A stretch of 64,000 nt of DNA, taken from positions 211,660 to 275,659 of the forward strand of contig JNJK01000005.1 in the NCBI GenBank assembly GCA_000701625.1. The letters are read 5' to 3'. The translations under genes and the position numbers were made by a program. Shown piece by piece: positions 14,298 through 37,251 of the stretch (the stretch's first letter is position 1; the number at the start of each line of letters is the position of its first letter). The notes under the pieces are model-generated. The model was not told where the DNA came from and searched no databases. It saw only the letters and a list, made by a program, of their open reading frames with translations. Origin of the DNA: Lachnospiraceae bacterium MC2017. GTDB taxonomy: Bacteria; Bacillota; Clostridia; Lachnospirales; Lachnospiraceae.

Positions 14298-14310
14298 ATT
14301 TCTCTTTCCT

Positions 14311-17055: not shown

Positions 17056-18408
17056 TCACTTTTTGCACAATTGTTCAGAATGAAATCTAACGATCATTCC
17101 TATAAATAAACCAATCAAAGCAGGAACTCCCCAGCCTATACCCAGATCGTAAAGCGGCAAAAATTTTGACACTGCGTGTACAATTATATCAGCATGAATA
17201 CCTGTTTGAACGTCATCAGGCAGTGTACGGAGCAGATCAAAAAATGCTGCAACCGAAGTAAATGCCGTTACTGATATGAATACTCGTTTATCATACTGTA
17301 TCACTCCTCCAAAAAGACACATAAGTATGAGAGTGATCGCCAGAGGATACAGGAACATCAATACCGGAACTGCATATGAGATCAACACAGTAAGTCCTAC
17401 ATTTGAAATTACAAGCGGCAGGATAGTGAAAATAACTGCCCATTTTTTATAAGTAATTTTCGGAAAAAGCTGTTCAAAAGTCTCAGCACAACTTGTTACC
17501 AGACCGATCGCAGTTTTCAGGCATGCCAAAAATACCATTATCGCCAAAAGCAGCTGACCTGTTTTTCCGAAATAATGAGCTGCAATCTGTGCGAGTGCGA
17601 TACCACCGTTATCGCTGATATCAAGTACTCCACGGCTCTGTGCACCCATAAGTGTGATCAGCGCATAGATCGTTCCCATTAAAATGCAGCAGAATACGCC
17701 GGCTTTCAATGTACATTTAGCAATAGCCGCAGGTTCACTGACACCGAGTTCTCTGACTACGCGGATGATGATTATACCAAATGCGATCGACGCAAGTGCA
17801 TCCATTGTATTGTAACCTTCGAGAAATCCATTAAAAAATGTATTATCAGCAATTGACGGATCCGGTACTACATTCCCCATCATTCCCATCGGACGAACGA
17901 AAGCCAATAGAAGCAAAAGTCCCAAAAATGTCAGGAAAACCGGATTAATAACCTTTCCGACCCACATCAGTATTTTTCCCGGCTTCAGAGAGAATATGAG
18001 TACCAGTGCAAAGAAAAACACAGAAAATGCAGGCAGCCATAAAGATGAGCCCGACGCAGCAAGCATGGGTTCTATTCCTACCGTAAATGAAGTTGTGGCG
18101 CATCTCGGTATCGCAAAGAAAGGTCCTATCGTCAGGTAAAGCGCACAAGTAAAAAAGAGTGACCAGCCTTTACCAACACGGCTAGCCATGTCAAAAAGAC
18201 CTTCGCTCCGTGAGCTTCCCATAGCGGCCACACCCAGGAGCGGCAGCCCCACTCCGGTCGCAATAAAACCTGCAGCTGCGATCAATGCCTTTGATCCTGC
18301 GAGCTGTCCCATATGCACTGGGAATATCAGGTTTCCGGCTCCGAAAAAGAGCCCAAATAACATACTGGCAACAGCCAGTGTTTCTTTAAGTGTCAGTTTT
18401 GTTTTCAT
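17056..18408 (-). CDS. brnQ: Branched-chain amino acid:cation symporter
   Basis: The 450-residue protein has 12 predicted membrane segments and matches BrnQ/LIVCS transporters: MLFGLFFGAGNLIFPVHMGQLAG at the start, GVGLPLLGVAAMG, TIGPFFAIPRCATTSFTVGIEP (about 92-113), and ALASIAFGIII. BrnQ imports leucine, isoleucine and valine with Na+ or H+. The ATG at 18408 is preferred over a TTG seven codons earlier. It stands alone, with a strong hairpin upstream ending the preceding operon. The family length of 430-450 is met, so it is intact. Confidence 0.92.
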   Translation of the reverse strand: MKTKLTLKETLAVASMLFGLFFGAGNLIFPVHMGQLAGSKALIAAAGFIATGVGLPLLGVAAMGSSRSEGLFDMASRVGKGWSLFFTCALYLTIGPFFAIPRCATTSFTVGIEPMLAASGSSLWLPAFSVFFFALVLIFSLKPGKILMWVGKVINPVFLTFLGLLLLLAFVRPMGMMGNVVPDPSIADNTFFNGFLEGYNTMDALASIAFGIIIIRVVRELGVSEPAAIAKCTLKAGVFCCILMGTIYALITLMGAQSRGVLDISDNGGIALAQIAAHYFGKTGQLLLAIMVFLACLKTAIGLVTSCAETFEQLFPKITYKKWAVIFTILPLVISNVGLTVLISYAVPVLMFLYPLAITLILMCLFGGVIQYDKRVFISVTAFTSVAAFFDLLRTLPDDVQTGIHADIIVHAVSKFLPLYDLGIGWGVPALIGLFIGMIVRFHSEQLCKK

Positions 18409-18520
18409 AGCTAAAAATGTATCCTTCAAATCATTACTCTTTTAAGAGCATAATATATCTATTATGATGTTCCACATCATTTTGGTCAATACCCTAAAAC
18501 AAAGTTCCAACACTGACACA

Positions 18521-18560
18521 AAAGAGCTTTACTGGCATAAAAACCAGTAAAGCTCTTTTT
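18521..18560 (-). terminator. Strong terminator of the EIIC-EIIA/PP2C operon
   Basis: AAAGAGCTTTACTGG pairs perfectly with CCAGTAAAGCTCTTT around a seven-base loop, with T-rich ends on both strands. It lies about 40 bases past the EIIC-EIIA stop and could work in both directions. Confidence 0.9.
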
Positions 18561-18601
18561 CGCATTTCACTATACCCTTATTCGGATCCCGGCAACTGAT
18601 G

Positions 18602-20227
18602 TCAACTACTCAAAACCGTAACAACTATTGGAGATAATCCTGCCTGTGTGATCTTCTCGAGCTCAACTTCCATCACTTCCTGTCCGGCTGTGACACTTTC
18701 TCCTTCTTTGACTAATGGCTTTAGTCCCTTTCCGTTAAGCGTAAATGTATCGATACCCACTAAAAGGATAATCTCCGTATTATCATCGATCCGGAATGTC
18801 ATTGCATGATTTGTATCCGCGATTTCAGAGATCACCCCATCACAGGGAGCAAAAATATGTCCATTCTCCGGCATGATACCCATGCATTTTCCGATTACAC
18901 CTGATGAAAACATTATATCCGGGATACAGTTCATCGGAACAGTTTCTCCGTCCGCAGCAGCTGCGATCGACAGATTACTCCTGCCGTGCCCTCCGGTCTC
19001 CATCAAAGCATCGCCCGCATGAACAACTTTTGATTTTTTCCTGCTAAGACGTGCAAAAGCTGCCGAACGCCAAAATGACACCTGTTCATCAGAAAGAGAT
19101 GCTTCGATATTCAGCCCCTTATCACCATAGAAAATATTTGTAATTACAAATCCACCTAAATAGCTGATAACGATCGCTATCAGATAACAAAGAACACTGA
19201 TAAAACGACCACCACGACCGGCTGTCATCATAAACGCACCCATAAGGCCGGATGGTCCCCAACCTGTCGAAGCAACCCCTGTAAGCATGATAAATGCTCC
19301 TCCGAAACCCGCTCCTAGTCCTGCTGTAAGAAAAGGCATACCTAACGGCAGAGTTACTCCGTAGATCAGCGGTTCTCCAACACCCATTATTCCCGCAGGC
19401 AGTGCACCTGCGATAACAGAACAAAAATCGTTGTTGCCGGTTTTCCTGGCTTTTTTCCAAAGTGCCAGTGCCGCACCAACCTGTCCTGCTCCTGCCATGG
19501 CAAGTGCAGGATAAAGTGTTACATAACCAAGTTCCGACAACTGAACACTATAAAGAGCAACCAGACCATGATGCATACCTGTAGCCACCAACGGCAAAAA
19601 ACATGCTGACGCAAGATAACCTGAGACAGCCTTGATCAAAATATTCTGTGATAGACATGCCCTGCCAAAAATCCAGACAATTCCCTCTGAAATATATCCG
19701 TATAATGGCATTACAAATATGATATACGGGATCACACACACAACCATAGTGATGACCGGTGTAAAGATCACATCAACGGAACGAGGCATTATCGTACGGA
19801 CAGCCCTTTCAACATTGGCTATCAGCATCGCTCCAACGATAACCGCCATGATGCCGCCTTTCCCGCTTCGAAGGATCGAATCCAGCGGAACCTCATTATT
19901 ATAAAGTCCAAGGATTTCCGCTATCACATTTATCCCTTCCATAGATGTGATCATTCCCAGCATACCACCAAGGATAGGCGTACCTCCAAACCTCTCAGAT
20001 GCACGGTACCCCGCCCAGGCAGTCAAAAAAGTCATGACAGATGAATTTATCAATGACAAGATCTGGTAAATAAACATCCACACATCATTTTCTGCGTAAT
20101 TCGGAACCATTTGCGCTATGAGCGACGCAAAACCACCGCAAAGACCTGCACAAATAATACCCGGCAACAGTGGAATAAAGATCTCTCCTATAGTTTTCAG
20201 GTCATTTTTTAGCCTGTTCATTCTCAT
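18602..20227 (-). CDS. PTS-like EIIC-EIIA protein with non-phosphorylatable EIIA
   Basis: The ATG at 20227 follows GGAGGGG by seven bases and gives 541 residues; longer starts run into the phosphatase gene. Residues about 10-400 form a glucose/sucrose-family EIIC with about ten membrane segments and the motif GVGEPLIYGVTLPLGMPF near 280. Residues about 430-541 form an EIIA-Glc-like domain (FSSGVIGKCMGIMPENG, FAPCDGVISEI). Its helper histidine is kept (TNHAM), but the phosphate-accepting histidine of HxGIDT is leucine (EIILLVGIDTF). No EIIB domain is present. A normal phosphate relay is therefore not possible in this protein alone. It follows an RsbU-type phosphatase by 31 bases. It may be a sensor or a facilitator; its substrate is unknown. 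Confidence 0.82.
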   Translation of the reverse strand: MRMNRLKNDLKTIGEIFIPLLPGIICAGLCGGFASLIAQMVPNYAENDVWMFIYQILSLINSSVMTFLTAWAGYRASERFGGTPILGGMLGMITSMEGINVIAEILGLYNNEVPLDSILRSGKGGIMAVIVGAMLIANVERAVRTIMPRSVDVIFTPVITMVVCVIPYIIFVMPLYGYISEGIVWIFGRACLSQNILIKAVSGYLASACFLPLVATGMHHGLVALYSVQLSELGYVTLYPALAMAGAGQVGAALALWKKARKTGNNDFCSVIAGALPAGIMGVGEPLIYGVTLPLGMPFLTAGLGAGFGGAFIMLTGVASTGWGPSGLMGAFMMTAGRGGRFISVLCYLIAIVISYLGGFVITNIFYGDKGLNIEASLSDEQVSFWRSAAFARLSRKKSKVVHAGDALMETGGHGRSNLSIAAAADGETVPMNCIPDIMFSSGVIGKCMGIMPENGHIFAPCDGVISEIADTNHAMTFRIDDNTEIILLVGIDTFTLNGKGLKPLVKEGESVTAGQEVMEVELEKITQAGLSPIVVTVLSS

Positions 20228-20258
20228 TATCAACCCCTCCGGCAAGACTATGGTTTTC

Positions 20259-21533
20259 TTACGCTGATAATCCGTCTGTTCCGTAGTAACATAAGCACAG
20301 CATGGTGATATCGTCAAACTGTTCTGCCCCATCCACAAAGCGATTTATGTCATCCATAACATTTGTCAGGGTCTTTTCCGGAAGTGCATCCGGTTCACTG
20401 TTAAGTGCAGCCAGCATCCGTTCAGTACCGTAAAGCTCATTATCAGCGTTAGTAGCTTCCGCAACACCGTCCGTATATACAAAAAAGCTGTCTCCCGGAT
20501 TCATCTGGAATTCATGCTGTCTGAACTTTAATCCTTCCATAATTCCGACTGGCATCGAATGCCTGTAGACTATCAATTCATAACTGCCGTCAGCTCTTCG
20601 GACTGCAGGATGTTCATGACCGGCATTCGCAACGATTCCCTTACCTGTAGAAATCTCAAGCACCGCAACCCACATTGTCACGAAAAATCCCTCATCATTT
20701 CCTTCACAAAGCTGATTATTCACGTGTTCCAAAGCTTCCGATACACTATTACCGTTCTGAAGACCGGACTTAATAAGAACACGACTAACCATCATGAGCA
20801 GTGCCGCAGGAACTCCCTTTCCAGATACATCCGCCATTACAAAACCGATGTGGTCATGATCTATCATAAAGAAATCGTAAAAGTCTCCTCCAACTTCTTT
20901 CGCAGGAGTCATGCTGGCATATAAACGGAATTCTTTTCTATCAGGGAATGGTGGAAAAAGTCTTGGAAGTTGGCTTTGCTGGATCTTGCTCGCCATCTCA
21001 AGTTCCGCGCCGATCCTCTCTTTTTCAGCAGTAACTCTTTTTATCTGGTCGATATAAAGTGCTGTACGGAGCGACTGCTTTGCAAAAGCTTCCGCAAGAA
21101 CCTCAATCTCATCTCCTGTTCTGTACACATCTTCCATCTTGAATTGTCTGTGCCTGATACCAAGAGATGCTATCCGTCTCGTGATGGTATTCAGCGGATC
21201 GATGATCCTCCTCGAAATGGAATACGCCGAGATTAGACCAGCTGCTACTATCAACACTACCAGGATAAGAAGTATATTTCGCGCATGGAACATTTTTTTA
21301 CGAAATGAAGTCATAGCACCACTTTGGATTTCTTCATACTTATCCTGTAGTCCGTTTTCCTCATACACCTGTCTTTGCATCTCGTAGGTGTCATCGACCA
21401 GTTTTTCTACCCTGCTCGTCTGATAAAAAAAGACTGCAGTATATGCCACGATGATAAGTACGATCGTAACCAGCATCATGCTAAATATTTTATGCCGGAT
21501 ACCACCTCTAAGAATCCCCCTTTGATCTCCCAT
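20259..21533 (-). CDS. RsbU-type PP2C (SpoIIE) phosphatase with HAMP and membrane sensor
   Basis: The 424-residue protein has a membrane helix (about 17-38), an outer loop of about 45 residues, a second helix (about 86-107), a HAMP domain (about 108-160, RRIIDPLNTITRRIASLG), a linker helix (AELEMASKIQQSQLP) and a PP2C domain. Metal-binding motifs are intact: EVGGDFYDFF, VMADVSGKGVPAALLM, ANAGHEHPAV and YTDGVAEA. Such phosphatases act on phosphorylated STAS antagonist proteins, which then bind RsbW-type kinases. No STAS gene is in the window, but two nearby transporters carry RsbW-like domains. The degenerate EIIC-EIIA gene follows in the same operon and may signal to it. Confidence 0.9.
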   Translation of the reverse strand: MGDQRGILRGGIRHKIFSMMLVTIVLIIVAYTAVFFYQTSRVEKLVDDTYEMQRQVYEENGLQDKYEEIQSGAMTSFRKKMFHARNILLILVVLIVAAGLISAYSISRRIIDPLNTITRRIASLGIRHRQFKMEDVYRTGDEIEVLAEAFAKQSLRTALYIDQIKRVTAEKERIGAELEMASKIQQSQLPRLFPPFPDRKEFRLYASMTPAKEVGGDFYDFFMIDHDHIGFVMADVSGKGVPAALLMMVSRVLIKSGLQNGNSVSEALEHVNNQLCEGNDEGFFVTMWVAVLEISTGKGIVANAGHEHPAVRRADGSYELIVYRHSMPVGIMEGLKFRQHEFQMNPGDSFFVYTDGVAEATNADNELYGTERMLAALNSEPDALPEKTLTNVMDDINRFVDGAEQFDDITMLCLCYYGTDGLSA

Positions 21534-21654
21534 CGATACTCCTCCGCTTTCACAGCGATTTCGCTAGTTTTATATATACACTACATTTATTTTTCGACAT
21601 TTTTTTATCATATATATAGTTAATACAACTAATTTCTTTTTAAGTATAAGCGCA

Positions 21655-21692
21655 GAAATAGCGCCTGCGGATTTGCAGGCGCCTGTGTTTAG
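21655..21692 (-). terminator. Terminator of the lipoprotein gene
   Basis: GCGCCTGC pairs with GCAGGCGC around GGATTT. The minus strand then reads TATTTC, while the plus strand has a better T-run. It lies between the lipoprotein stop and the PP2C start. Confidence 0.65.
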
Positions 21693-21706
21693 TTTTTTAC
21701 CAACGA

Positions 21707-22687
21707 TCATTCCTGATCAAATGTGATCGAATCGATTATTCCTGAAAGAGCATCTGACACAGCTATGTTCTGCGCTTCATCATTTCCGTTATGTCCTGAA
21801 ATCTCAAATATAAGTGCTCCATCCATATAATCTCTGCCGAGAGCGGTCGCGTATGCGCCGGAACCATCTTTGTCCGGATCGAGAATAGCCCAATATCCGG
21901 TAACAGCCTCATTACCAAGGAAAGGTGCTTCAGAGTATGTTGTCTTATCAGAACCCCATGACTCACCAAGCTTCTTTATAGCAGCTTCTGCCTTATCCTC
22001 AACAGTGTAAGTCACTGTGATCATATTTGTACCGGCAGATTCACCTGTATAAACTATAAAAACATTACCGTTTTCTCTATTTATCTCGAAATCATTTGCA
22101 TTGTACTTGATGCTCCAGCCATTGGCATCGTGATAAACACTCTTCTCCGGTCCATTCACATAGTTCTCTGCGCTGAAATTGTCCGCATCTACATCATCAA
22201 GTCTCTCAAATACCAGCTCTAGTCCATCGACAAATGAACCTGTGATCCTGTCTTCTTCAAAAGATGTAATCTTTAATGTGTCTTCAACAGAATCCGAACC
22301 TCCGAAACTAAAGGAAACTTCGCCATCTCCCTGAGTGCAGTCAAAAGGTACGCCTGTTCCTGTTGTGCCATCCTCGGTATAACCATAATCAGCTCCGTTA
22401 AATACGTAGAAATAAGTCTTATCAGGATTTTCAGCTTCCTTTGCATAATTAACGTACACACCCTTTGTGAAATAAACCTCTCCGGCTGCGGTTTGCATGA
22501 TGTCATCTTCGATCGAATCCAAAACTTCCGATGCGCCTGCTGATAAAGACACATCTTCCTCAGCGCTCTCTGTCGTCTGGGCTGCGGCCTCTGTTGCAGT
22601 TCCTGCCGGCGCACTCTCTTTTCCGCATCCTGACATAACTGTCAGAGCAACCACACCTGTAACCATGATCACCATAAATTTTTTCAT
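21707..22687 (-). CDS. Lipoprotein of unknown function
   Basis: The ATG at 22687 follows GAGGGG by eight bases and gives 326 residues. MKKFMVIMVTGVVALTVMSGC is a lipoprotein signal with the cysteine at residue 21. A Thr/Ala/Glu-rich linker follows, then about 270 residues of beta-rich sequence (VYFTKGVYVNYAKEAE, GSFVDGLELVFERLDD, GWSIKYNANDFEINRENGNVFIVYTG). It is anchored on the outer face of the membrane. I recognise no family. It has its own promoter region and terminator, between the PP2C operon and the NRPS-like operon; a link to either is only positional. Confidence 0.65.
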   Translation of the reverse strand: MKKFMVIMVTGVVALTVMSGCGKESAPAGTATEAAAQTTESAEEDVSLSAGASEVLDSIEDDIMQTAAGEVYFTKGVYVNYAKEAENPDKTYFYVFNGADYGYTEDGTTGTGVPFDCTQGDGEVSFSFGGSDSVEDTLKITSFEEDRITGSFVDGLELVFERLDDVDADNFSAENYVNGPEKSVYHDANGWSIKYNANDFEINRENGNVFIVYTGESAGTNMITVTYTVEDKAEAAIKKLGESWGSDKTTYSEAPFLGNEAVTGYWAILDPDKDGSGAYATALGRDYMDGALIFEISGHNGNDEAQNIAVSDALSGIIDSITFDQE

Positions 22688-22855
22688 TTTGTTTACCCCT
22701 CTGCTAATTTTTGATTTTATCAGTACTTTGGACTGAACAAAAATTGAATCAGTCTCTTGTTTTCCTTGGGACAAACAAATAATACCAACATGATCATCAC
22801 AGAATTGTCACACGATAAAAATTGTGTCATATCGTTTTTATCCCGACCAAATTTA

Positions 22856-22915
22856 ATTGTTTCTACTCATATTCTAAAAAACGAGAATGACACCATCTGT
22901 CATTCCCGCTAAAAA
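22856..22915 (-). terminator. Terminator of the NRPS-like operon (copy 1 of a repeated element)
   Basis: GAATGACA pairs with TGTCATTC, followed on the minus strand by TTTTTTAGAATATGAG. The same 60-base sequence recurs at 29471-29534 with about 85-90 % identity, including the bases past the T-run. Confidence 0.85.
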
Positions 22916-22927
22916 CTGCAATTCGTG

Positions 22928-24574
22928 TTATGAATTAAATTTACTCATATCGACAAGACCTTCTTTTTTAGCAATGATCGTAGATACAACTGCATCGCCT
23001 GTGACGTTGGTACAGGTCTGCATCATTCCAACTAACGGGTACAGACCCATGACAAGACTTACTGCCTCTGCCGGTACGCCGATCTGCGGTATCAAAAGTG
23101 CGATGCAGACCAGATTTCCACCAGGAACTCCGGGGCTTCCAACAGAAAGAACCATTATCGCAATAAACAAGGACAACAGCACGCTGGGAGTAACCGGTAT
23201 CTGAAAGATCTTTGCGCAGAATAAAGCTGAGATCAAAAGCGAAATACAGCTTCCATCCATATTTATAGTAGCTCCAAGCGGCAGTGAAAACGAATAAATC
23301 TTTGGTGAAATTCCTAATTTATCGCAGCACTCGATAGATGTAGGAAGAGCCGCATTACTCGATGCACAGGTAAATGCAGATGCCATTGCAGGGTAATACT
23401 TCTTTAGGAACTTGTTCGGTGTCAGACCTGCAAACAATGCCAATAAGATGATATACACACAGATCATCAAAACATCGCCGAAATAAATAACCGGTGCCCA
23501 TACAAATACATTCAAGAGTGTCTCAAAATTCATTGCGATCATCATCTTCGCCATAGAGCAAAAGACAATTAAAGGAATTAACTTTACCATCACAGACGTG
23601 ATCTTAGAAAACACATCATTTAAAATGCCAAGCATTTTTTTAACTTCGGGGATTTTTCCTGCTAAAGAAGCCGCAGCTATGCCAAGTACCACAGCCATAA
23701 ATATCAGCTGAAGCATATCTGACTTCTGAAATGGCGTAATGATATCACTTGGTACGATACCTACAATAGTATCCTTGATGGAAATAGTCACTCCTTCAGC
23801 CTTCTGCAGGGTTGCCTCTGCCGTCTCTTCAGAAACTGCCACTGCCAGATCAGTACTTCCTATCGGGAAAAGCTGATATGTAAAATATCCAACACAGATC
23901 GCGATCATAGAAGTCAGGAGGTAAAAGGCAACTATCCGGGTCGCAATCCTTCCAAGAGCCTTTAGATCCGTAAAGTCAGCAATACTGTAAGCCACCGAGA
24001 AAAATACCAGAGGCGCCACGATCAATTTAAGGAAATTTAAAAACATGGTATAAACCGGCGTAATAAGCAGCGTGCTGATATTTTTTCCAACTTCTGCAGG
24101 CAAAAAATTGTGGATCAGAAATCCTGTCAAAATACCGAGTATCAGCGCAGCGATAGTATATATCAGGTTTGTGTAGGTAGATTTTTTTACAGGAAAAGTA
24201 ACTATAGTCTTCCCTTTATTTCTACGTACCAAAAGAGTATCAGCAAATAGCTTATCATAAAGCTTCTTGATAACATCTCCTGCGTCTTCATCAAGTTCAT
24301 CAACCTTAAGCCTCTCATAAATATCAGAAACCGCAAAAGCATCACAACCTGCCTTTATCTGAACTGACAGATTTCCAAAAAGCCCCCTGATCTCTATCAC
24401 AATATCACTACCTACAGGAGCAGATTCCAAAATCTTAGCCAATACCTCCTCTGTGGTCAAAAGAGTCTGAACGATCTGTTTCGAATTAATGTTCCGTTCC
24501 TTCAAAGAATCCTGAACAAACTTCACTCCACTTGCTATTACACCACTATCTGCTTTCAGTACCTTCTTATCCAT
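22928..24574 (-). CDS. Dicarboxylate/amino acid:cation symporter with N-terminal RsbW-like domain
   Basis: The ATG at 24574 follows AAGGAA by about six bases, giving 548 residues. Residues about 130-540 are a full DAACS/SDF transporter like GltP/DctA: SSNAALPTSIECCD (the serine-rich turn), LPLGATINMDGS (substrate and Na+ site), and VGSPGVPGGNLV. It would import glutamate, aspartate or C4-dicarboxylates. The first 125 residues are foreign to this family. TTEEVLAKIL, the run of strands after it, and DVIKKLYDKLFADTLLVRRNKGKTIVTF resemble an RsbW-type histidine-kinase-like ATPase, though the N-box Asn is not evident. It starts four bases after the NRPS-like gene. Function is inferred: transport controlled by, or feeding, a partner-switch signal. 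Confidence 0.85.
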   Translation of the reverse strand: MDKKVLKADSGVIASGVKFVQDSLKERNINSKQIVQTLLTTEEVLAKILESAPVGSDIVIEIRGLFGNLSVQIKAGCDAFAVSDIYERLKVDELDEDAGDVIKKLYDKLFADTLLVRRNKGKTIVTFPVKKSTYTNLIYTIAALILGILTGFLIHNFLPAEVGKNISTLLITPVYTMFLNFLKLIVAPLVFFSVAYSIADFTDLKALGRIATRIVAFYLLTSMIAICVGYFTYQLFPIGSTDLAVAVSEETAEATLQKAEGVTISIKDTIVGIVPSDIITPFQKSDMLQLIFMAVVLGIAAASLAGKIPEVKKMLGILNDVFSKITSVMVKLIPLIVFCSMAKMMIAMNFETLLNVFVWAPVIYFGDVLMICVYIILLALFAGLTPNKFLKKYYPAMASAFTCASSNAALPTSIECCDKLGISPKIYSFSLPLGATINMDGSCISLLISALFCAKIFQIPVTPSVLLSLFIAIMVLSVGSPGVPGGNLVCIALLIPQIGVPAEAVSLVMGLYPLVGMMQTCTNVTGDAVVSTIIAKKEGLVDMSKFNS

Positions 24575-24584
24575 ATGCATTTCC

Positions 24585-27533
24585 TTATAAATAATGCACC
24601 CCTACGCTCTTTATAGACAACGAATGATCCTTTAATCTAACCAACTCCGAGCAGACTTTGCAAAAAAGCTTTGCGAAAGCCTCCGCTGTAGTTCTTTCAT
24701 AGACTCCGGCATCGTAATCAACCAAAACCCCGAAAGCATTTTCGCTGTCAAGTATCTCCAAATCCATTTTGTTGTCACATGCTGTATTTGGTGACACCAG
24801 TTCAGATATCTCTTTTACTATTTCGTCATTTTCCTTAAAATCATAAATATCTCCTTGAAAAATCATGCAAAGAAGATCATTTCCATAATATCCGCCGCAT
24901 TCTTCCCAGTACGATACATGACCATGGGCGATACCATCCCTTACCTGTGCTGCAACTTCATTTAAAAAACTCTCTATAGACAGGTCTTCCTCAAGCGTAA
25001 ATGTCACCGGCAGATCCAGCAAAAAACATCCGACCGAATCCATCTTTCGCAGATCATTTCTTCCGTTCCAGTTCCATGTAAATGCCACATTTCCGTTTTC
25101 ACTATCTAAAGAGAGCGCGATCGCCGCTGCCGCGATATATAGCCCGTTCCTACCAAGCTCGTACATATCACTGATCCGCTGCACTTCTTCTCTCTTAAAC
25201 GGAAACTTCAGGAAAAACTTGTCATCCACATTCTCGCGATCATTATGATCAGGCGTTGGATACGTAACACAGTCTGTCCTGTCATAGCGTTCTCTAAAAT
25301 AATCCATTTCCTTGCCAAACGCATCCGACTCCCTGAACAATTCTTCATCAACACAGATTTCTAAATACTCATCCTTAACCACGGGCTCATTTCTGTATAT
25401 CCTGCCTATATCTTCCAAAAGTAAGTGATATGATCCCCCAGCGCATATCGCGTGGCATACATCTATCAAACATACCTTTGAGTCCGGTGTTTCTATCAAT
25501 CTGCATCGAAACAGCGGAGTATTGTCAAAGCGAAACGGCTTTACAAATTCCGCGGCGGCTATTTCAAGTTCTTCGTTATTCATCTTTTCCGGAACGATCT
25601 TCGACATGACACATTTATCAAATCTCTGCAGAAAACCGGATTCAGTTTCTTCTATAGTGCTGGTTATCGACGGATGCAGGAGCATCGCTTTTTCAATAGC
25701 CTCCGCTAACTTATTGAGATCAACCGAAGTATCAAGTAAAAATCTTTCCGCTAGATTTAATACCGAAGAATCCGGATTCTCTTTTTGAACACATATCAGA
25801 TAATTCTGGGTAGCATTTACATGTACATAAGGAACCTCTTTAGCAGGTACCGGTATGTCTGATCTTTCTTGCTTCCTAATCAGCGTCTCTATCTCTTTCG
25901 CAGTCCTTCCTTCATATATATCCTGCGCGTTTAATCCCTTAAGACGGCATTTCAATATCACGAGCATCACCTTGATCGAGTCTCCGCCAAGGTCAAAGAA
26001 ATCATCATTTATGCCGACTTTTCTATTACATTGAAGAACTGTCTCAAACGCTTCACATATAGCCCTCTGTACATCATTTTCAGGCTCTGCATATGTACCA
26101 TGCGTCCCTACAGCAGAGGGTTCCGGCAATCTAAGCTTATCAACTTTTCCATTTGCATTAAGCGGGATCTCCGTGATCCTCACAAAGCACTGCGGTATCA
26201 TATACTCCGGAATATATGAACTGAGCAGCTTAAAAGATTTTCCCGGAGAAAGCTCTATGTCTCCCTTATAATATGCACAGAGATACGACGTGCCATTATC
26301 TCCCTTAAACGCCTTTACAGCGCAAAACTCTGTGCCAAATGCTTTATTTACAGCATTTTCAACTTCTGATAATTCTACGCGGTTTCCGTTGATCTTTACC
26401 ATTTCACCGATCCGGCCCCAAACGGTATATCTGCCCTCTTTATCCAGTGAAGCATAATCTGCGCTCTTAAAGAACCTCTTTCCGCGGATCGTTACAAATG
26501 CTCGTTCATTTTCCTTTTGCAGGTCATGATATCCTCTAAAGAACGGAAGATATACGCACAGCTCACCTTCATCAGCTTCGTTCCTGTCTTCATCTATAAG
26601 CACTATCTCACTGTTCTTTGTAGGGTAGCCTATTGGCGTGTTGCTGTATGCACGGTCTATCTTAAAATGGCAGGCAGCGTATGCAAATTCACTAGAACCG
26701 TAGATATTTATTACATCAAAATCACCTCCGGCAATACCGGATACGATCTCCCCTCCCGTATAGCAGACACGCATTGACTTTATTCCAAGCTGCTGCAGTA
26801 CTTTTAAAAATGTAGGTGTCATAAATGTTGAATCGATCCTGTGCTCATTTAAATATGAACTGAGTCTGACCGGGTCCATTGTGATCTCCCATGAAATGGC
26901 GTGGATCGTACATCCAAACCCGAGAACCCCCACAGTTATATAAACTCCACCCACAAAAGATTCCGGAATAACGTGTCCAAATCTCAATATTTCTTTTCGT
27001 TTTCCTTCTCCCTCTCCATCAGGATACACATGTTCATACAGGAAACCTTTACCTAACCCCTCCCACATGAGGTCATATACACCATATTCTTCAGCTGCCC
27101 CCTTAGGTGCACCGCTGCTGCCGGAAGTATAGATATAAAATGCAAGGTCATGAGGATCCGGCTCAATAAACTCCGGACATTCCGGAAGCTTCATAGCTTC
27201 TTCCCATTCTGCCTCTCTCATTACCAGTGCGCAGCCGCAGTCTTTTATCACATAATCTATTCGCTCTTTCCCCATCAGGTCTTCAAGCGCGACCCACGCT
27301 GCACCAGCCATCATTACACCGATGCGAGTAGCTATATACTCCATTCCCTTGGGATAATATATCCCAACTGTATCCTCTTTACCGATGCCTCTGTCCTGTA
27401 GATAGCGGTTGACCCTCATAGCACAGTTAAAAAGATCCCTGTAGGTCGTACTCCGCGCACCATCCCGATCCACCACCGCAACACGGTCAGGATACTGCTC
27501 CGCATTCTTTTTAAGTCTTTCTATAAAATCCAT
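24585..27533 (-). CDS. Single-module NRPS-like enzyme (A-T-C)
   Basis: The 982-residue protein starts eight bases after AAAGGG. Residues about 1-460 are an adenylation domain with YTSGSSGAPKG (A3), NIYGSSE (A5), GELCV (A6), GRIGEMVKINGNRVELSEVE (A8) and NGKVDK with the catalytic Lys (A10). About 480-550 is a carrier domain with DDFFDLGGDSIKV, whose Ser takes phosphopantetheine. About 570-982 is condensation-like; CHAICAGGS keeps the catalytic second His of HHxxxDG but not the Asp, and VGCFLLDLPV is present. No thioesterase or reductase follows. The A4 region lacks the usual Asp that binds an alpha-amino group, so the substrate may be unusual. The gene lies between two transporters in one operon. 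The product is unknown. Confidence 0.88.
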   Translation of the reverse strand: MDFIERLKKNAEQYPDRVAVVDRDGARSTTYRDLFNCAMRVNRYLQDRGIGKEDTVGIYYPKGMEYIATRIGVMMAGAAWVALEDLMGKERIDYVIKDCGCALVMREAEWEEAMKLPECPEFIEPDPHDLAFYIYTSGSSGAPKGAAEEYGVYDLMWEGLGKGFLYEHVYPDGEGEGKRKEILRFGHVIPESFVGGVYITVGVLGFGCTIHAISWEITMDPVRLSSYLNEHRIDSTFMTPTFLKVLQQLGIKSMRVCYTGGEIVSGIAGGDFDVINIYGSSEFAYAACHFKIDRAYSNTPIGYPTKNSEIVLIDEDRNEADEGELCVYLPFFRGYHDLQKENERAFVTIRGKRFFKSADYASLDKEGRYTVWGRIGEMVKINGNRVELSEVENAVNKAFGTEFCAVKAFKGDNGTSYLCAYYKGDIELSPGKSFKLLSSYIPEYMIPQCFVRITEIPLNANGKVDKLRLPEPSAVGTHGTYAEPENDVQRAICEAFETVLQCNRKVGINDDFFDLGGDSIKVMLVILKCRLKGLNAQDIYEGRTAKEIETLIRKQERSDIPVPAKEVPYVHVNATQNYLICVQKENPDSSVLNLAERFLLDTSVDLNKLAEAIEKAMLLHPSITSTIEETESGFLQRFDKCVMSKIVPEKMNNEELEIAAAEFVKPFRFDNTPLFRCRLIETPDSKVCLIDVCHAICAGGSYHLLLEDIGRIYRNEPVVKDEYLEICVDEELFRESDAFGKEMDYFRERYDRTDCVTYPTPDHNDRENVDDKFFLKFPFKREEVQRISDMYELGRNGLYIAAAAIALSLDSENGNVAFTWNWNGRNDLRKMDSVGCFLLDLPVTFTLEEDLSIESFLNEVAAQVRDGIAHGHVSYWEECGGYYGNDLLCMIFQGDIYDFKENDEIVKEISELVSPNTACDNKMDLEILDSENAFGVLVDYDAGVYERTTAEAFAKLFCKVCSELVRLKDHSLSIKSVGVHYL

Positions 27534-27544
27534 AATTTTTCCCT

Positions 27545-29266
27545 TTAGTCTATCTCAAATGAATTTCGGTTAAAGCTGAGTGACGTGAAGTTAAGTTTAT
27601 TATTCGTAATATTTTCGATAAGGCATGAAACAACAAACGATCTGAGCGATCCAATCTCGTTATCCGGATCAGTTAGATCATAAAAGACCCCATTATCCTT
27701 GGTTATTATATGCACTCCCTTTCCTGCTTCTACTATGCACTCCGCAAGAACCTTTTTCCCGGGATTCAGATCATATATGAGCATAAACAGTTCTTCGAAA
27801 AGTATCATGACCCTGTTTACAGTCGTATCACTTTTTCCATCATCCCTCAGCGTCTGACATATCCGGTCTCTTGTGGAAATGACCACCTCAGGTGTGACTT
27901 CAAATTCATACATCCAGATGTGGCGCTCTTTTTCCAGAGGGGAGATGAAAAGGGCATAGCTATCTTTATCATACCGGATGCAGATATAGAGATATGACAG
28001 CAGATACCCAAGCCCCGGAGCGATCGTCAGTCCGACAAACATACCAAAAACTCCCCCGATCTGTCCGCCGATAACAGCTAACGGAGCCGCGACTGCCGCA
28101 TCTCTTAATGCACATATCAATACACCCAATGGAATTTTGTCTATGAGGATATAATAAGAAGAGTCAAGATACATCCTGCTCGTGAAAACCAGCGTAAGAG
28201 ACATCATTCTCAGCCCCGTCACAGCTATACCCACAGTCTGCGGATCTGTTATACCGAGGAACCGCACGATCAGCGGGGCACCCAAAATGATCATAGCTGT
28301 AACAATTGCGCTCTCGATCACTGCTGTATTTCTCGCGAGCTTCCATACTTCACTCACCCCCGGATATGTTTTCTCTCCGAGATACACGCTTACTATCGGA
28401 GTGAGTGCCACCCCGACTCCGTCAAAAGCAAACTGTATTTCTTTGATAAAAGCCACAACAGAGATCAATATCATCATACTGCTGCCGAAACTCCAGGATA
28501 TGTAACGGCTCAATACAAATGTAAATATCACCAGGAATAAAAATGTGCTTGAATCCACAATACTGTATTCGATAATGCCCTTAAGCTTCGCATATGAAAA
28601 ATAAAGATTAAATCGAAGTGAATTTTTCTTCTTAAAAAAGTGGATTAATAATATGAGCATGGATGCTGCACGTGTAAAAAAAGATGCGAAACTCAAGCCT
28701 CCGATTCCCATTACCGGAGCCAGCAAAATCGAAAAGATGATATTGCCTATAGCAGATGACGCAGTTGCCAGGGTACTCAGGAACTCATCCCCATCAGCAA
28801 AGACCATACCGGAAAGCAGTGTTTCAAAAGGAGCGATAAGGGCAACATAGTTTATCCAAAACAAATACTTCCTTGCCTGTATCAGTCCCTCACCCTCAGC
28901 TCCGATAAAATCAAGGTATATTTTTTCGCTGGAAAGCAGCAGGACAAACAGAAAGACCCCAGTAACGATCGTTCCGAGAACCCCTACACCAAATGTACGG
29001 TCAGCTTCTTTTCTGTCAAATGCACCAACCTCTTTTGAATAAATGATTGGTACGCCCAGCGAAAACATCAGTGCAAAAAAGCTCGCCAGAGAGTAAAACG
29101 GCAAAGCCAGATTTACGCCTATGACAGCATCCGCTCCCAGCATGATACCCGCGATGAACGAATCCGACATCACCACAAATGCCAGAAAAAACGAAGTCAC
29201 TATTCCTCCTGCCAGCATGGAATAAAATTTTGACGATATAAAAGTCTGTTTAGTTAACACGTTCAT
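27545..29266 (-). CDS. MATE family transporter with C-terminal RsbW-like domain
   Basis: The likely start is the ATG at 29266 (573 residues), about 12 bases after AAGGGGAG; upstream codons give a basic stretch without a site. Residues about 10-440 are a 12-helix MATE transporter (GIVTSFFLAFVVMSDSFIAGIMLG, ALPFYSLASFFALMFSLG, EIQFAFDGVGVALTPIVSVYLG). MATE proteins export drugs and metabolites using Na+ or H+. The last 120 residues are cytoplasmic and unusual: TVNRVMILFEELFMLIYDLN resembles the N-box helix of RsbW ATPases, and IITKDNGVFYDLTDP the strand region after it. It is the first gene of the operon, followed by the NRPS-like gene after 11 bases. It may export that enzyme's product. Confidence 0.85.
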   Translation of the reverse strand: MNVLTKQTFISSKFYSMLAGGIVTSFFLAFVVMSDSFIAGIMLGADAVIGVNLALPFYSLASFFALMFSLGVPIIYSKEVGAFDRKEADRTFGVGVLGTIVTGVFLFVLLLSSEKIYLDFIGAEGEGLIQARKYLFWINYVALIAPFETLLSGMVFADGDEFLSTLATASSAIGNIIFSILLAPVMGIGGLSFASFFTRAASMLILLIHFFKKKNSLRFNLYFSYAKLKGIIEYSIVDSSTFLFLVIFTFVLSRYISWSFGSSMMILISVVAFIKEIQFAFDGVGVALTPIVSVYLGEKTYPGVSEVWKLARNTAVIESAIVTAMIILGAPLIVRFLGITDPQTVGIAVTGLRMMSLTLVFTSRMYLDSSYYILIDKIPLGVLICALRDAAVAAPLAVIGGQIGGVFGMFVGLTIAPGLGYLLSYLYICIRYDKDSYALFISPLEKERHIWMYEFEVTPEVVISTRDRICQTLRDDGKSDTTVNRVMILFEELFMLIYDLNPGKKVLAECIVEAGKGVHIITKDNGVFYDLTDPDNEIGSLRSFVVSCLIENITNNKLNFTSLSFNRNSFEID

Positions 29267-29395
29267 TACTTTATGTATTCTCCCCTTGTGTAACAAGTTA
29301 TGCCTGGCTCGATAAAGCCTTGTTACTCTATTATCTACATCGGTATTTTTTCTTAAAAATGTACATTGCATATTCTTGTTTTCAAAAAAATGACT

Positions 29396-29445
29396 ATAGC
29401 CTCAGGCTTTCCAAGGTCATGAAAAACTCCGAATCTATTTATCTG
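29396..29445 (+). pseudogene. Short relic of a chemoreceptor gene
   Basis: This stretch reads [15 protein letters not shown] and matches both DNA and protein of the chemoreceptor gene 0.77 kb further on ([16 protein letters not shown], near 30170-30215). The surroundings do not match. It looks like the remains of a partial duplication. Confidence 0.45.
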
Positions 29446-29470
29446 TTTATAGCATTTTCATTCCGAACAT

Positions 29471-29534
29471 ATTTGATTGTTTCTACTCATATTCTAAAAA
29501 AGGGAATGACATCTTCTGTCATTCCCGCTAAAAA
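29471..29534 (-). terminator. Terminator after the dehydrogenase relic (copy 2 of a repeated element)
   Basis: GGGAATGACA pairs perfectly with TGTCATTCCC, then TTTTTTAGAATATGAG on the minus strand. Nearly the same sequence ends the NRPS-like operon at 22856-22915. Confidence 0.85.
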
Positions 29535-29548
29535 ATTAATATCCTCTC

Positions 29549-29735
29549 TTTTTATCTACCACATATTTCAGCGGTAACCCATTGACATAGTTTTCCAGAT
29601 CTTCACAGAACATCTCTACATTTTTATCTACCGTGTATTCCAGCGGAATGACTGCTCTGAACATTTTCCACTTCTGGATATTCCTACTATAGTCTTGAGA
29701 TCAAAGGCCTTCGCTCTTTTCGCAATCATCATTGT
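29549..29735 (-). pseudogene. Decayed D-2-hydroxyacid dehydrogenase
   Basis: Two pieces in different minus-strand frames look like this family. Near 29735-29680, MIAKRAKAFDLKTIVG resembles the Rossmann helix and strand (RAKAFGMKVIG type). In the other frame, 29695-29549 ends ENYVNGLPLKYVVDKKRGY-stop, close to the family's usual C terminus (ENL..L.GEPL.NVVDKE.GY). About 150 residues between them are missing. The shared terminator follows directly. The gene is clearly dead. Confidence 0.55.
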
Positions 29736-29772
29736 CAAAATACGCAATTAATATACATTTTATCAAAAAACT

Positions 29773-29781
29773 GCCGAATAA
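29773..29781 (+). promoter_or_regulatory. Possible sigma-28-type -10 element of the chemoreceptor gene
   Basis: GCCGAATAA lies 58 bases before the ATG and resembles the GCCGATAA motif of flagellar sigma promoters. No clear TAAA is found at the proper distance upstream, so support is weak. Confidence 0.3.
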
Positions 29782-29838
29782 TATATTGGAAACCCGTATA
29801 CCTCAACCTTTTTTAATCATTTTTAAGGGGGAACTACC

Positions 29839-31551
29839 ATGAATATAAAAAATCTTGTAAAAGTGGATAAAAAGAAAATACATGACATGAATGTTGAATC
29901 TAAATTCAGTTCAACTTTCAAACAGATTATCGTGATGTTCTGCGCTGCAGTTGCCATGCTTACGATCACTATAGTCTCATCAGGCATATCTGTAAGCAGG
30001 CTTTATAACACCTACTACACCATGAACACTATACAGGGTGATATAAGAATAGATATGCAGGCTTTATCAAAGGCCTTTCTCTGGGCGCTGTCATCTCCGG
30101 ATGATGCTATCAGAAAAGAACAGCTTCAAAAAGCTATGGACAAATTTGGTGAGTTTGAAGATAATCTCAGCAACCTATCTAAAGTCATGAAAAATTCTGA
30201 CTCTATTTCATTGGTATCAAAAGACCTGAAAACTGTCGAAGCAAATGGAAAAGTTCTCGGTGATATGTTCAGCAATAATGCAAGTTCTGAGGATTTATTC
30301 TATTACTTTAACGATACTCTGTATCCATCTATAGATGCAGCTGTAAAAGATTTTAAGGCTGTGTCCTCCGCTTCTACCGACGAAGCCGCGAAAGCATATA
30401 AAACTTCTCTCGTTTTCTGCATCATTATGTCTGTCATTACTCTTATTGTCGTTATATTGGTAATGCTTTACATAGTTGATGTAAAAATCGCACTGTCTGA
30501 GTCGATACTTAAGCCTGTCGAAGAGATTTCCAAAGCTGCCGATAAAATGGCCACGGGTAATCTCCATATAAATATCGACTATGAATCAGAGGATGAACTC
30601 GGACGACTGGCAAAAGACCTTAATTCCTCAACTTCCGTGACAGAACAGATCATAAATGATATCCGAGAAACACTTTTACTCCTTTCCAACGGAGATTTTA
30701 CACACGGAACTCTTAAGCCTGAACTATACAAAAACGATTTTGCACAAATTAGCGAAGCTCTGACAAACATTACTGATTCTCTTTCTGATACATTGTCACA
30801 GGTTCGTGATTCTTCTAATCATGTTTCAGATGGTGCAAATGGTATGAGCACGGCAGCCTCCGATCTGGCTGAGGGCACTGCAAATCAGGCGGCAGCTGTT
30901 CAGGAACTCAACGCTTCTGTCTCTACGATAACTTCTCAGACCAAAAACATGGCTGAAATAGCCGAAAGATCAGAAAAAATGGCTGACAAGGTTAGAGAAG
31001 ATGCAGATGCCAGCGCACGAAAGATGAGCCTCGTTACAGAAGCTATGGTCCGCATCACCGAAGCCTCTACCGAGATCGAGCAGGTTACAAATACTATCGA
31101 ATCCATAGCCAAGCAAACTCAGCTCCTCGCTCTTAACGCTTCTATAGAAGCTGCGCGCGCCGGAGAATCAGGACGCGGCTTTGCCGTAGTTGCTGATGAG
31201 ATCAGCACTCTCGCCAGTCAGAGTACTGACGCCGCTAAGAATACTTATCAGCTCATTCAGGATACTATGAGCGAGATAAAGAACGGAAATGCTGTTGTCG
31301 GCGAAACAACCGACGCCCTGCAGCATATGCAGGAATCTGTTGAATCTATCACGACCATGATAGTAGAAACCGGTAATATGGCAAAACATCAGGCAGCCAG
31401 CATGACCGAGATCTCAGCAGGAATCGAACAGATATCCACCGTTGTACAAAGTAATTCCGATACAGCCCAGCAATCAAATGATCTATCCCAGTCACTAACC
31501 GAACAGGCTGAAAATCTGATTGGAATAATTAATAACTTTAATCTGAAATAA
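29839..31551 (+). CDS. Methyl-accepting chemotaxis protein
   Basis: The 570-residue receptor has a membrane helix at about 28-50, an outer four-helix-type sensor (about 51-190), a second helix (about 192-215), a HAMP domain (about 217-275), a further linker, and the signalling domain. The hairpin tip is intact: [40 protein letters not shown] (about 440-480), where CheA and CheW bind. AAGGGGG lies before the ATG. It senses an unknown outside ligand and steers the flagellar motor; a CheY-type gene is 12 kb away and no other chemotaxis genes are near. It is transcribed alone and ends at a very strong hairpin. Confidence 0.93.
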
Positions 31552-31573
31552 ATTCTAAATAAGATCAGCTACG

Positions 31574-31606
31574 CAAGATCCCCGCCGGAAACCGGCGGGG
31601 ATCTGC
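31574..31606. terminator. Strong bidirectional terminator
   Basis: GCAGATCCCCGCCGG and its complement form a 15-base, GC-rich stem around AAA, between two convergent genes (chemoreceptor and GH43 enzyme). The T-runs are short. Confidence 0.75.
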
Positions 31607-31645
31607 TGATTTGGAATTCTTATGGGATTTTTATCTACACACAGA

Positions 31646-34600
31646 TTACTTAAGAGTAACCTTTGTTGTGTACTTCTTGCCATTGATCTCTGCAGATACT
31701 TTGAGAGTACCCTTCTTTGCACAGGTAACACTTACATGTTTACCGTCCTTAGATACAGAAATCTTTGCGTCTTTTAACTTATTTGTACTCCATACAGCTG
31801 TGCTGATGTCTGTGCCCTTAAGTTCAAGTGCAACAGCTTCACTAACCTTACCAGCTGCCTTCTTCTCCATTTCAGGAGCCTGGATCCTGAGGGACTTTGT
31901 GACATCCTTACCCTCAACCTTGTAGCCGATCACTACTTCAGAAGCACCCTTCTTAAATGTGATCTTGCCATTCTTACTGATCTTTACTCCCTTTCCGCTG
32001 ACTACCTTAAATGTTCCCTTATCACCCTTAAGTACTACCTTCTTTGCACCAAAGTTAATAGTTACATTACCTGACTCAGCAGATGCAAGAGTAGTTGTAT
32101 CACCAGGTGCTGCGATCTGGTCAGCTGTAGAAGATTTTCCGTTACCTGCTGATGCCTTTGCTGCAGGCTCTGATGCAGGCTTTGTTGTGTCTTCCGGTTT
32201 TGCAGGAGCCGGCTGATCCGGTGTCTCTGGTGCCGGTGTTTCAGGTTTCGGAGCATCAGGATTCGGTGTATCCGGTGTCTCTGGTGCCGGCTTGTCCGGT
32301 GTCTCTGGTGCCGGCTTGTCCGGTGTCTCTGGTGCCGGCTTGTCCGGTGTCTCTGGTGCCGGTGTTTCAGGTGTCGGAGCATCAGGAGTCGGTGTCTCCG
32401 GTGTCGGCTTGTCCGGGGTCGGATCATCCGGTGTTGTCGGTGTCGGATCATCCGATGTCGGATCATCCGGAGTTACAGGAGTCGGATCATCCGGGGTAGG
32501 CTGATCCGGTGTCTCTGGTGTCGGATCTTCAGGTATTTCAGGTGAAGGATCCGGTGTCAGATCGCCTGTGTGTCCTTCGCCTTCAAATACGTAAGAGTCA
32601 AGTTTCATCAGCTCAGTGCCTTCACCCTTAAATACAAGGAACACATTTCTCTTTCCGGTAATGTTTGTGATATCTGTAGAAAGTTCAGTATACTCCTCTG
32701 TACCTGCCGGAACTTCCAATGTTCCTAAGAGGCTTCCTTCAGGGCTGTCTACACGTACTTCAATGCTTCCACCCTTTTCAGACTTTACTCTTGCCTTAAA
32801 TGTATCAGCGCCGGCTTCACCAAAATCTGCACCAGCAACACTTGTCCAGTCACCGTCATCAAGCTTTACAAGTTCTCTGTGGAAATCATCGATATTAGCA
32901 ACTTTGATGCCCTTATTCCAAGCAATTGTCTCAGCTTCGATCTTCTTATATGGATCAAGAGATTCAAGCTGGCTGATTCCTTCGTAAGTTCCCTTTACAG
33001 GCTTGATCATACCATCTTCATCAAGTTCAAGAGCATCGATATGAGTTGAGCGATAGCCCTGTGCCTTGTTATATTCCTTTGCAACAGTCTGAGCATGATA
33101 GATAAAGTAACTCTTACCTCTGAATACGAATGTTGCGTGATGGTTATTTCCACCTACTCCGAACCATGTCTGCGGATTATCGAAAATCTCACCTACATAC
33201 TCAAAGGGTCCCATCGGACTGTCGCTAGTCATATACGCGATGTTTCCTGTTCCCGGATATCCAGCCTTATGAGGTCCGATGAAGTTGGAGCAATAGCTGT
33301 AGTAGTATTTATCTCCATACTTAAAGATACCGGAATCCTCAAACATCGCAGGAGCATCGATTTCTACTGCTTCACCCTCGATGCTTATCATGTCATCACC
33401 GAGCTTTGCAACTCTTGCTGTATGCGGGTTGTTATTCTCACCATTCCTTCCATCATTCGGAACACCGCCGCCAAAGTAGATGTAAGCAGATCCGTCATCA
33501 TCTACGAGTACAGCCGGATCAAAACACCATGTTACGCCTGCACACCCAGGTGTAGCACGTGTGATGAGAGCCTTTTTGATAGGATCCCTCCAGGGACCTA
33601 TAGGTGTATCTCCCTCTATAACGCCAATACCGCTGGCATCGTTTGCGAAATACAGGAAGAACTTATCCTTGCCGTTGATCTTTTTATGAGCGATAGCAGG
33701 AGCCCATGAATGATTTGCCCACTCTTTAGCTGCGCCATCTTTGCCTGCGACTTTGATCTCTCCATGGTCTGTCCAGTTAACCATATCAGATGATGAGATA
33801 ACTCTAAGAGTTTTGATATAACCAAAGCTGTTGTCCTTCAGACTTCCGTCTGTTTTATACTCATAATCATCAGATGTCATATAAACATATACTCTGTCAT
33901 TGTAAACAAGAGCATATGGATCTGCGCCGAGTTCCTGAGTTACGAGCGGGTTAGAATAACCAAGCTGCTTTGCAATTGCGCCTGTGTTAAGGAACTTGAG
34001 CTTTACAACCTTTACTGCATCCTTAACATCATAGAATACAGTCTTGCCGCCGTCCACGTGAGCAGAAAGAAGATTAAACTTGCCCTCAACATCCTTTCTT
34101 ACATATCCGCTCATCTTGAGCTTAAGTGTTGCGAAAAGTCCGTCCTCAGCATCAAATGCAACATCATCACCGTCTACGTCGATCACGAGCTTGCCGTCTT
34201 CGACAGCAAATTTAGCATCTCCACTGATAGCATCCTCATTGAACTCAACGTCATCAACATTAACCTTTTCAGGAAGAGCTAATGTAAGTTTAAGGTTCTT
34301 GTAACCATTCTTCTCAAGCTTATCGAGTTTGATCTTTGCTTCTGCTTCCTGGTTGATAACACCAAGGATCTCATCGGGAACTTCAAGCTCTGCTTTAATA
34401 TTGCTCTCTCTGTAGTCCTTATTTCCTTCATTTACATCCTTTGAAAGCTCAACGATAGAAAGATCATCAACTATGATATCTAAGAGATCGGCTTCTGTTG
34501 CCTGTTGTGCGTTCTTATATGGTGTTTCAATGTAAACATTTACAATATCTCTGTCATCATTCTCAGAGAATGTATACTGACCGGAAAGATTTACCCACTC

Positions 34601-36739: not shown

Positions 36740-37198
36740 TCATTCTCCTACCGGATGCTCATTTATATATTGTTCAAGAATTTCCGCAGCATCTCCGATT
36801 ATCTCCGCACAGGGACGCTTTTTATAGTATTCCTGTGTGCGGGCTTCGGGAGTAGCCGCATCATGCTTTACATTTAATCCCAGCATCTCACGACAGACGA
36901 TAGTGCCATGCTTTTCCTCAAATTTATGTGCCAGTTCCTGTATCCTTGCATAATGAGCAGCCTTAACCTCGCCTGTTTCCGGTCCATCATAACCGTAAAG
37001 GATTCCGGCTACCATAAACATACCTGTCACTGAGCCGCAAACTTCCCTGAGTCTTCCCATCCCACCGCCAAAGGATGATGCGAGGCTCATGAGGATCTTC
37101 TGATCTCCGGGAAGCAGATCCATAAATGTGAGCATTATAGACTGGGAACAGTTATATCCCTCTTTAAAATGCGCCATTGCCTGTTCTCTTCTGGTCAT
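36740..37198 (-). CDS. C-GCAxxG-C-C family protein
   Basis: The ATG at 37198 follows GGAGGA by nine bases; a GTG two codons earlier is too close. The 152-residue protein has GYNCSQSIMLTF near the start, SSFGGGMGRLREVCGSVTGMFMVAG (about 43-67) and later cysteines in IVCREMLG and RPCAEIIGDAAEIL. It is longer than the paralogue at 13923-14297. The family is thought to bind metal or take part in redox chemistry, with no proven reaction. It precedes alkD with an overlapping start, so the two are made together. Confidence 0.88.
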   Translation of the reverse strand: MTRREQAMAHFKEGYNCSQSIMLTFMDLLPGDQKILMSLASSFGGGMGRLREVCGSVTGMFMVAGILYGYDGPETGEVKAAHYARIQELAHKFEEKHGTIVCREMLGLNVKHDAATPEARTQEYYKKRPCAEIIGDAAEILEQYINEHPVGE

Positions 37199-37251
37199 TA
37201 TCACTATTCCTCCATATCAGATAATTCATTATCTATCTTATCATCTACAAT

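Follow-up and report, generated by a model that had tools for sequence, protein, structure and literature searches.

Partner switches are chiefly known as transcription controls; among those closest to the case described here are SpoIIAA-SpoIIAB and RsbV-RsbW of Bacillus with their phosphatases SpoIIE and RsbU. Here we describe a three-gene operon from Lachnospiraceae bacterium MC2017 (assembly GCA_000701625.1, contig JNJK01000005.1, positions 211,660 to 275,659, a stretch of 64,000 nucleotides hereafter called the window), in which a MATE exporter and a DAACS symporter, each with a predicted RsbW-like domain, stand on either side of an enzyme resembling nonribosomal peptide synthetases (NRPSs). 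Partner switching and STAS domains on transporters are both already known, and transporters can have signalling partners, that of the DAACS-family protein DctA being the sensor DcuS. DctA is a co-sensor in C4-dicarboxylate sensing that works with a separate sensor (PMC6978683); it shares its transporter family with the window's symporter and has a signalling role, but its sensor is a protein of its own, and the portion of that paper available to us mentions no RsbW-like domain. In MlaFB, the STAS protein MlaB is bound to an ABC ATPase, with phospho-control at MlaB Thr52 raised as possible (PMC7367683); a STAS protein acting on a transporter is what we propose here as well, whereas the MlaB target is an ABC ATPase rather than a MATE or DAACS protein, and neither an RsbW-like domain nor a PP2C phosphatase appears in the accessible text. 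SulP/SLC26 transporters, according to the available part of PMC8256260, carry a STAS domain; like the window's proteins, they unite a transporter with one member of the partner-switch pair, which is STAS there and RsbW here. Finally, SypA-SypE, which controls biofilm formation (PMC10120452), and SiaB-SiaC (PDB 6kko), which both of our domain models matched (VIA-align), combine a STAS-type protein with a serine kinase-like partner, as proposed here, but the accessible sections of that paper and the PDB titles mention no transporter fusion.

Set against the Bacillus switches, the present system has in common the RsbW fold (predicted), STAS proteins with an aligned Ser and SpoIIE-family PP2C phosphatases in the loci of relatives, and it differs in that the RsbW-like domain lies within a membrane transporter, the N-box Asn is lost in the window's family and a sigma-factor client is not evident. 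Neither a MATE-RsbW nor a DAACS-RsbW fusion is reported among the titles listed in searches of the open-licence literature, or in the available parts of PMC9540692 and PMC11418112, and, judged from the sequences, an RsbW half within a MATE or DAACS protein would be the new element.

The operon and its two RsbW-like domains

The operon runs on the minus strand as three open reading frames (ORFs) with tiny gaps, as the first-pass annotation of the window had observed. It encodes a MATE exporter of 573 amino acids with a C-terminal RsbW-like domain (27545..29266; the longest ORF starts from 29371, and the start used here was picked from relatives and upstream sequence), whose MatE domains are matched over two stretches (Pfam, 6e-16); an enzyme of 982 amino acids (24585..27533) with AMP-binding, PP-binding and Condensation domains, that is, adenylation, carrier and condensation (A-T-C), assigned by Pfam, motif alignment and PDB alignment; and a DAACS (SDF) symporter of 550 amino acids (22928..24580; SDF domain, Pfam, 3.4e-92) with an N-terminal RsbW-like domain. 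Since Pfam and NCBIfam detected no HATPase in either transporter, PF13581 (HATPase_c_2) included, the extra domains were assessed by structure and profiles instead. The exporter domain (27548..27946, minus strand; residues 476-608 of the long ORF) and the symporter domain (24161..24580, minus strand; residues 1-140) were modelled with AlphaFold2, and the best PDB matches of both models were RsbW, SpoIIAB and UsfX (Foldseek, VIA-align); profile comparison (hhalign) agrees with RsbW for both, with scores above those of shuffles. Both are thus predicted, as first suggested, to have the RsbW (GHKL) fold.

The catalytic motifs have fared differently. In canonical RsbW proteins the N box reads EEIFVN or similar, with the Asn in 5/5 sequences aligned; this Asn binds the Mg of Mg-ATP. 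It is gone from all 24 exporter domains and all 29 symporter domains in the alignment, including those of the window, where EELFML and EEVLAK, respectively, take the place of the canonical box, and the EE pair is retained almost throughout both families. The G1 motif D-x-G is present in 23/24 exporter domains, the symporter domain is without its Asp, and a Gly-rich G2 box (GxG lid) occurs in neither (by eye); within the exporter domain there is no variation in the EE helix or at certain other positions. Given the loss of the N-box Asn, the two domains are probably RsbW-fold pseudokinases, and ATPase or kinase activity, the former implied by their first assignment to RsbW-type ATPases, is not borne out by the motif.

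Among genome contigs of 84,980 species, screened with an exact-pattern prefilter, the exporter fusion was found at 24 loci. It occurs in 13/299 genomes of the window's family, and phylum-wide the exporter domain was found in 2/338 genomes, the window's own and one other of its family, so the degenerate exporter family looks narrow. No two proteins of the 35 exporter loci are at least 90% identical. The symporter fusion is also present in 13/299 family genomes (18 loci, by eye), and in the order 47/392 genomes match the symporter domain, some through stand-alone ORFs only. RsbW domains also sit at the C terminus of a second MATE family, which is present at 13 loci in 11/331 genomes of the class; HATPase_c_2 exceeded the Pfam cut-off in all five proteins scanned (L200, L202, L203, L207 and L208), and the N-box Asn is present in 13/14 rows, L196 being the exception. 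One of those rows is the MATE protein of L039, which served as the query for this family and scored 13.1 bits, below the HATPase_c_2 cut-off.

Partner-switch genes beside the exporter

Neighbouring genes were counted within 5 kb of the exporter (36 loci submitted, 35 with a usable centre) and of the symporter fusion (28 loci), several contigs ending within that radius. A STAS gene lies near the exporter at 7/35 loci (L062, L064, L065, L067, L175, L176 and L183, all confirmed by Pfam) and an RsbU-type PP2C gene at nine, namely these seven plus L178 and L179 (SpoIIE confirmed by Pfam in all but L179, which is a match to our own profile only); four loci also have a canonical RsbW (L062, L064, L067 and L176). 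The switch genes mostly point in the same direction as the exporter, in the orders STAS, RsbU-RsbW, MATE (L062, L064, L067), A-T-C, STAS, MATE, RsbU (L065), MATE, RsbU, STAS (L175) and RsbU, MATE, sugar kinase, STAS (L183), and L176 has its STAS gene on the opposite strand. The STAS partner of the relatives has a Ser aligned with that of known STAS partners. At the density of the window's genome, 0.14 STAS and 0.20 RsbU genes would be expected over the exporter loci, and the excess persists if ten of each per 3 Mb are assumed (p 6e-5 for STAS and 8e-7 for RsbU, values that are too small for related loci). Beside the symporter fusions, STAS was found once (L037; 1/28) and RsbU never (0/28), the latter differing from the exporter loci with p 0.003. 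The proposal that partner switching serves the exporter thus finds support in its relatives.

The second MATE-RsbW family adds to this, with STAS or RsbU within 5 kb at 9/13 loci (by eye): STAS at L200, L201, L202, L203, L204, L205 and L207, and RsbU at L200, L202, L205, L208 and L209. Pfam was run on the STAS proteins of L200, L201, L203 and L207 and on the RsbU of L208, the others being profile matches; in L204 the STAS gene is 4.6 kb off and on the opposite strand, and L200 and L201 have a fusion of STAS with an APH-type kinase-like domain, followed in L200 by RsbW. Near MATE-RsbW genes of this family, single proteins with a STAS start and a canonical RsbW end were also seen in L200 (10952-12541, with the APH-type kinase-like domain in between, by Pfam), L202 (12702-14309) and L205 (7139-8701). 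ORFs of 194 and 204 amino acids with no Pfam match adjoin STAS in L200 and L203, and a gene for 616-630 amino acids directly follows the MATE-RsbW gene in L205 (1831-3681) and L207 (10661-12553), the L205 product having a Bmp/PnrA-like substrate-binding domain.

Judged from its genes, the window's own cell contains the parts of a partner switch. A single canonical RsbW match over the cut-off is on contig 3, and three SpoIIE-family matches were found in the genome, one of them a PP2C gene of the window (20259..21533, minus strand; SpoIIE, 1.7e-48, with HAMP under the cut-off) that encodes an RsbU-type phosphatase with an N-terminal membrane part. The annotation was right about this membrane phosphatase and wrong in placing it 6 kb downstream: it lies 1.4 kb past the symporter, with one lipoprotein-like gene in between (21707..22774, minus strand; no Pfam or NCBIfam family above the cut-off), and is a candidate regulator serving the operon. 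On contig 3, a 230-amino-acid ORF right after the RsbW-STAS pair (L080, 8004-8696, minus strand) has, by eye, a degenerate RsbW-like look with an IAEETIG helix; a 212-amino-acid part of it had no NCBIfam match.

Transport as a proposed output of the switch

From this linkage we posit, as the probable reading, that transport is a direct output of a partner switch, with the RsbW-like domain of the transporter docking STAS and control running from switch to transporter. The membrane PP2C would respond to an outside signal and dephosphorylate STAS, unphosphorylated STAS would dock on the RsbW-like domain and change transporter activity, and the canonical RsbW kinase would rephosphorylate STAS and so release it; transport would thus be turned on or off by the phosphorylation of STAS. 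With its N-box Asn lost, the RsbW-like domain of the window's own family would serve for docking alone; the second MATE-RsbW family has kept this Asn, and there kinase activity could reside in the transporter.

Several observations weigh against transport as such an output. The roughly 130 C-terminal residues of the MATE protein and the 140 N-terminal residues of the symporter have no Pfam or NCBIfam match; the exporter-domain model is moderate (AlphaFold2 predicted local distance difference test score 73, weak over about residues 89-125), no Foldseek match of that domain passes E 0.001, and removal of the L039 row leaves the exporter profile at just 58% probability in its comparison with canonical RsbW (hhalign). 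STAS genes are missing from the surroundings of most fused transporters: 28/35 exporter loci and 27/28 symporter loci have no STAS within 5 kb (several contigs being shorter), there is no STAS gene in the window, and the one free STAS of the genome lies beside the canonical RsbW, on another contig than the operon. The symporter fusions show no significant STAS excess (p 0.11), the STAS difference between exporter and symporter loci (7/35 versus 1/28) is not significant either (p 0.066), and because the linked loci are partly related and hence not independent (L062, L064 and L067 seem to form a single group), the p values for the exporter are too small.

Extending the same reading, we tentatively propose, with somewhat less than even confidence, a transporter class with its own RsbW module, in which an RsbU-STAS switch drives transport rather than transcription; the window would then hold pseudokinase versions of an exporter and a symporter around an enzyme, with both transporters handling its product in response to a single STAS signal. 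If this is true, secondary transport would be a direct, fast and reversible output of serine phosphorylation, offering a route to the control of small-molecule export in gut and rumen Clostridia, where the exporter relatives are found, and following the switch genes would be a way to find the products of such enzymes.

The main rival runs the other way, with the transporters as sensors: flux would alter the RsbW-like domain, which would hold or release STAS and so signal to some other target, for instance a sigma factor or a regulon under RsbU control. The kinase Asn in 13/14 rows of the second family would let that transporter phosphorylate STAS itself, which suits a sensor; in the window's family, however, its loss from every aligned domain would leave signalling by sequestration only, and the genome's five SigBFG matches are all under the cut-off. 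We regard sensing as rather unlikely. That the RsbW-like domains serve structure or stability (dimerisation, folding) and have given up contact with STAS, their gene linkage being a relic of an ancestral regulated form, would fit the loss of the N-box motif and the many loci without a nearby STAS, but is improbable in view of the invariant EE helix and further residues of the exporter domain and of the STAS and RsbU genes that stand beside the degenerate domain at seven loci and not just beside the intact one.

The A-T-C enzyme and the proposed export loop

The adenylation (26124..27512), carrier (25881..26063) and condensation (24636..25820) domains of the enzyme, all on the minus strand, are above the Pfam cut-off. 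Adenylation domains hold amino-acid substrates by their amino group, through the Asp of the SFD motif. The best PDB match of the enzyme, the linear gramicidin synthase LgrA (6mfz), has the same A-T-C module order over the aligned stretch, but the window's enzyme is stand-alone, shows Val194 at the position of the SFD Asp of LgrA, and carries a variant condensation motif, CHAICAG instead of HHxxxDG; the carrier domain has a GGDS motif with its Ser present. Val at this position is common in the A-T-C family (motif alignment), and close relatives mostly have CHA-CDG in the condensation domain (CNAICDG in L046). With Val194 in place of the Asp, a possible substrate of the adenylation domain is an acid without an alpha-amino group.

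In line with the suggested pairing of enzyme and exporter, an A-T-C or related NRPS gene lies within 5 kb at 8/35 exporter loci (L045-L051 and L065), although the NRPS gene of L051 is divergent and two-module, and the A-T-C gene is cut by the contig end in L049 and L065; in L045-L048 and L050 the adjoining A-T-C relatives share 64-71% identity. The exporter fusion and the A-T-C family occur together in 6/299 genomes, or in five without the window's genome where 0.52 would be expected (p 5e-5, uncorrected for phylogeny). The product of the enzyme would be a small molecule, exported by the MATE protein. The symporter fusion, for its part, co-occurs with the exporter fusion in 5/299 genomes and with the A-T-C family in 5/299. 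All three families are found in 4/299 (G000, G080, G261 and G293, the window's included; like the pairwise counts, uncorrected for phylogeny), where a simple product, worked out by hand, gives an expectation of about 0.03. The A-T-C relatives of the three other genomes show only 29-34% identity, and the genes there are spread over different contigs, with one exception in G080, where a symporter fusion and an A-T-C relative lie about 48 kb apart.

Co-occurrence of the three families holds at the level of genomes and not in gene order. The three-gene order, which had been expected in relatives, is absent elsewhere among the examined loci, the symporter fusion being found at 0/35 exporter loci and the exporter at 0/28 symporter loci within 5 kb, and the cassette does not appear to be a conserved unit. 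At six loci the exporter is followed by the A-T-C gene; four of these have sequence past it, and L045 and L049 are too short to show a symporter gene. Re-import by the symporter is a weak reading of these genes, because the symporter fusion is usually alone and has STAS nearby at only 1/28 loci. Thus the full loop of the first-pass annotation, in which the MATE protein would export what the enzyme makes, the symporter would bring it back in and a single switch would govern both, is very unlikely on gene order, on the mostly solitary symporter fusions and on the distant, scattered A-T-C relatives, even with the single operon, the enzyme genes near the exporter, the three-family co-occurrence and three suggestive loci in its favour: L039, where an intact MATE-RsbW gene adjoins a symporter fusion; L208, where one adjoins a plain DAACS-like gene; and L130, where a MATE-like ORF (weak exporter-domain match, 5e-6) is divergent to an A-T-C relative.

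Carboxylesterase-like genes adjoin A-T-C relatives in L129 and L131 (by eye, with weak esterase hits in L129), and another lies between a plain MATE gene and the symporter fusion in L040 (Pfam); such neighbours hint at a hydrolysable product. In L133 (4327-9483, minus strand), a row of genes runs from an A-T-C gene, apparently split into two frames, through a gene whose 431-amino-acid product bears a STAS domain at its C terminus, to a MATE fragment.

Other features of the window

The operon is flanked by two near-identical terminator-like repeats on the minus strand, downstream at 22829..22915 and upstream at 29449..29534 (sequence comparison), which share about 50 bases of downstream sequence and are partially matched at other places in the genome. 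The possibility that they are direct repeats delimiting a mobile cassette was rejected: of eight genome matches to the terminator region, two are at the operon, one is on contig 32 and the other five are on contig 3 (122740-127925), so that it looks like a recurrent terminator rather than a cassette end. Rfam gave nothing above its cut-offs in window positions 18000-32000. A 42-codon ORF (29536-29664, minus strand) that stops just before the upstream repeat is perhaps a gene remnant (by eye). Elsewhere in the window, two small Cys-rich-looking proteins, SGFNCCQAVLKAF (13923-14321) and EGYNCSQSIMLTF (36740-37204), may by eye belong to one family.

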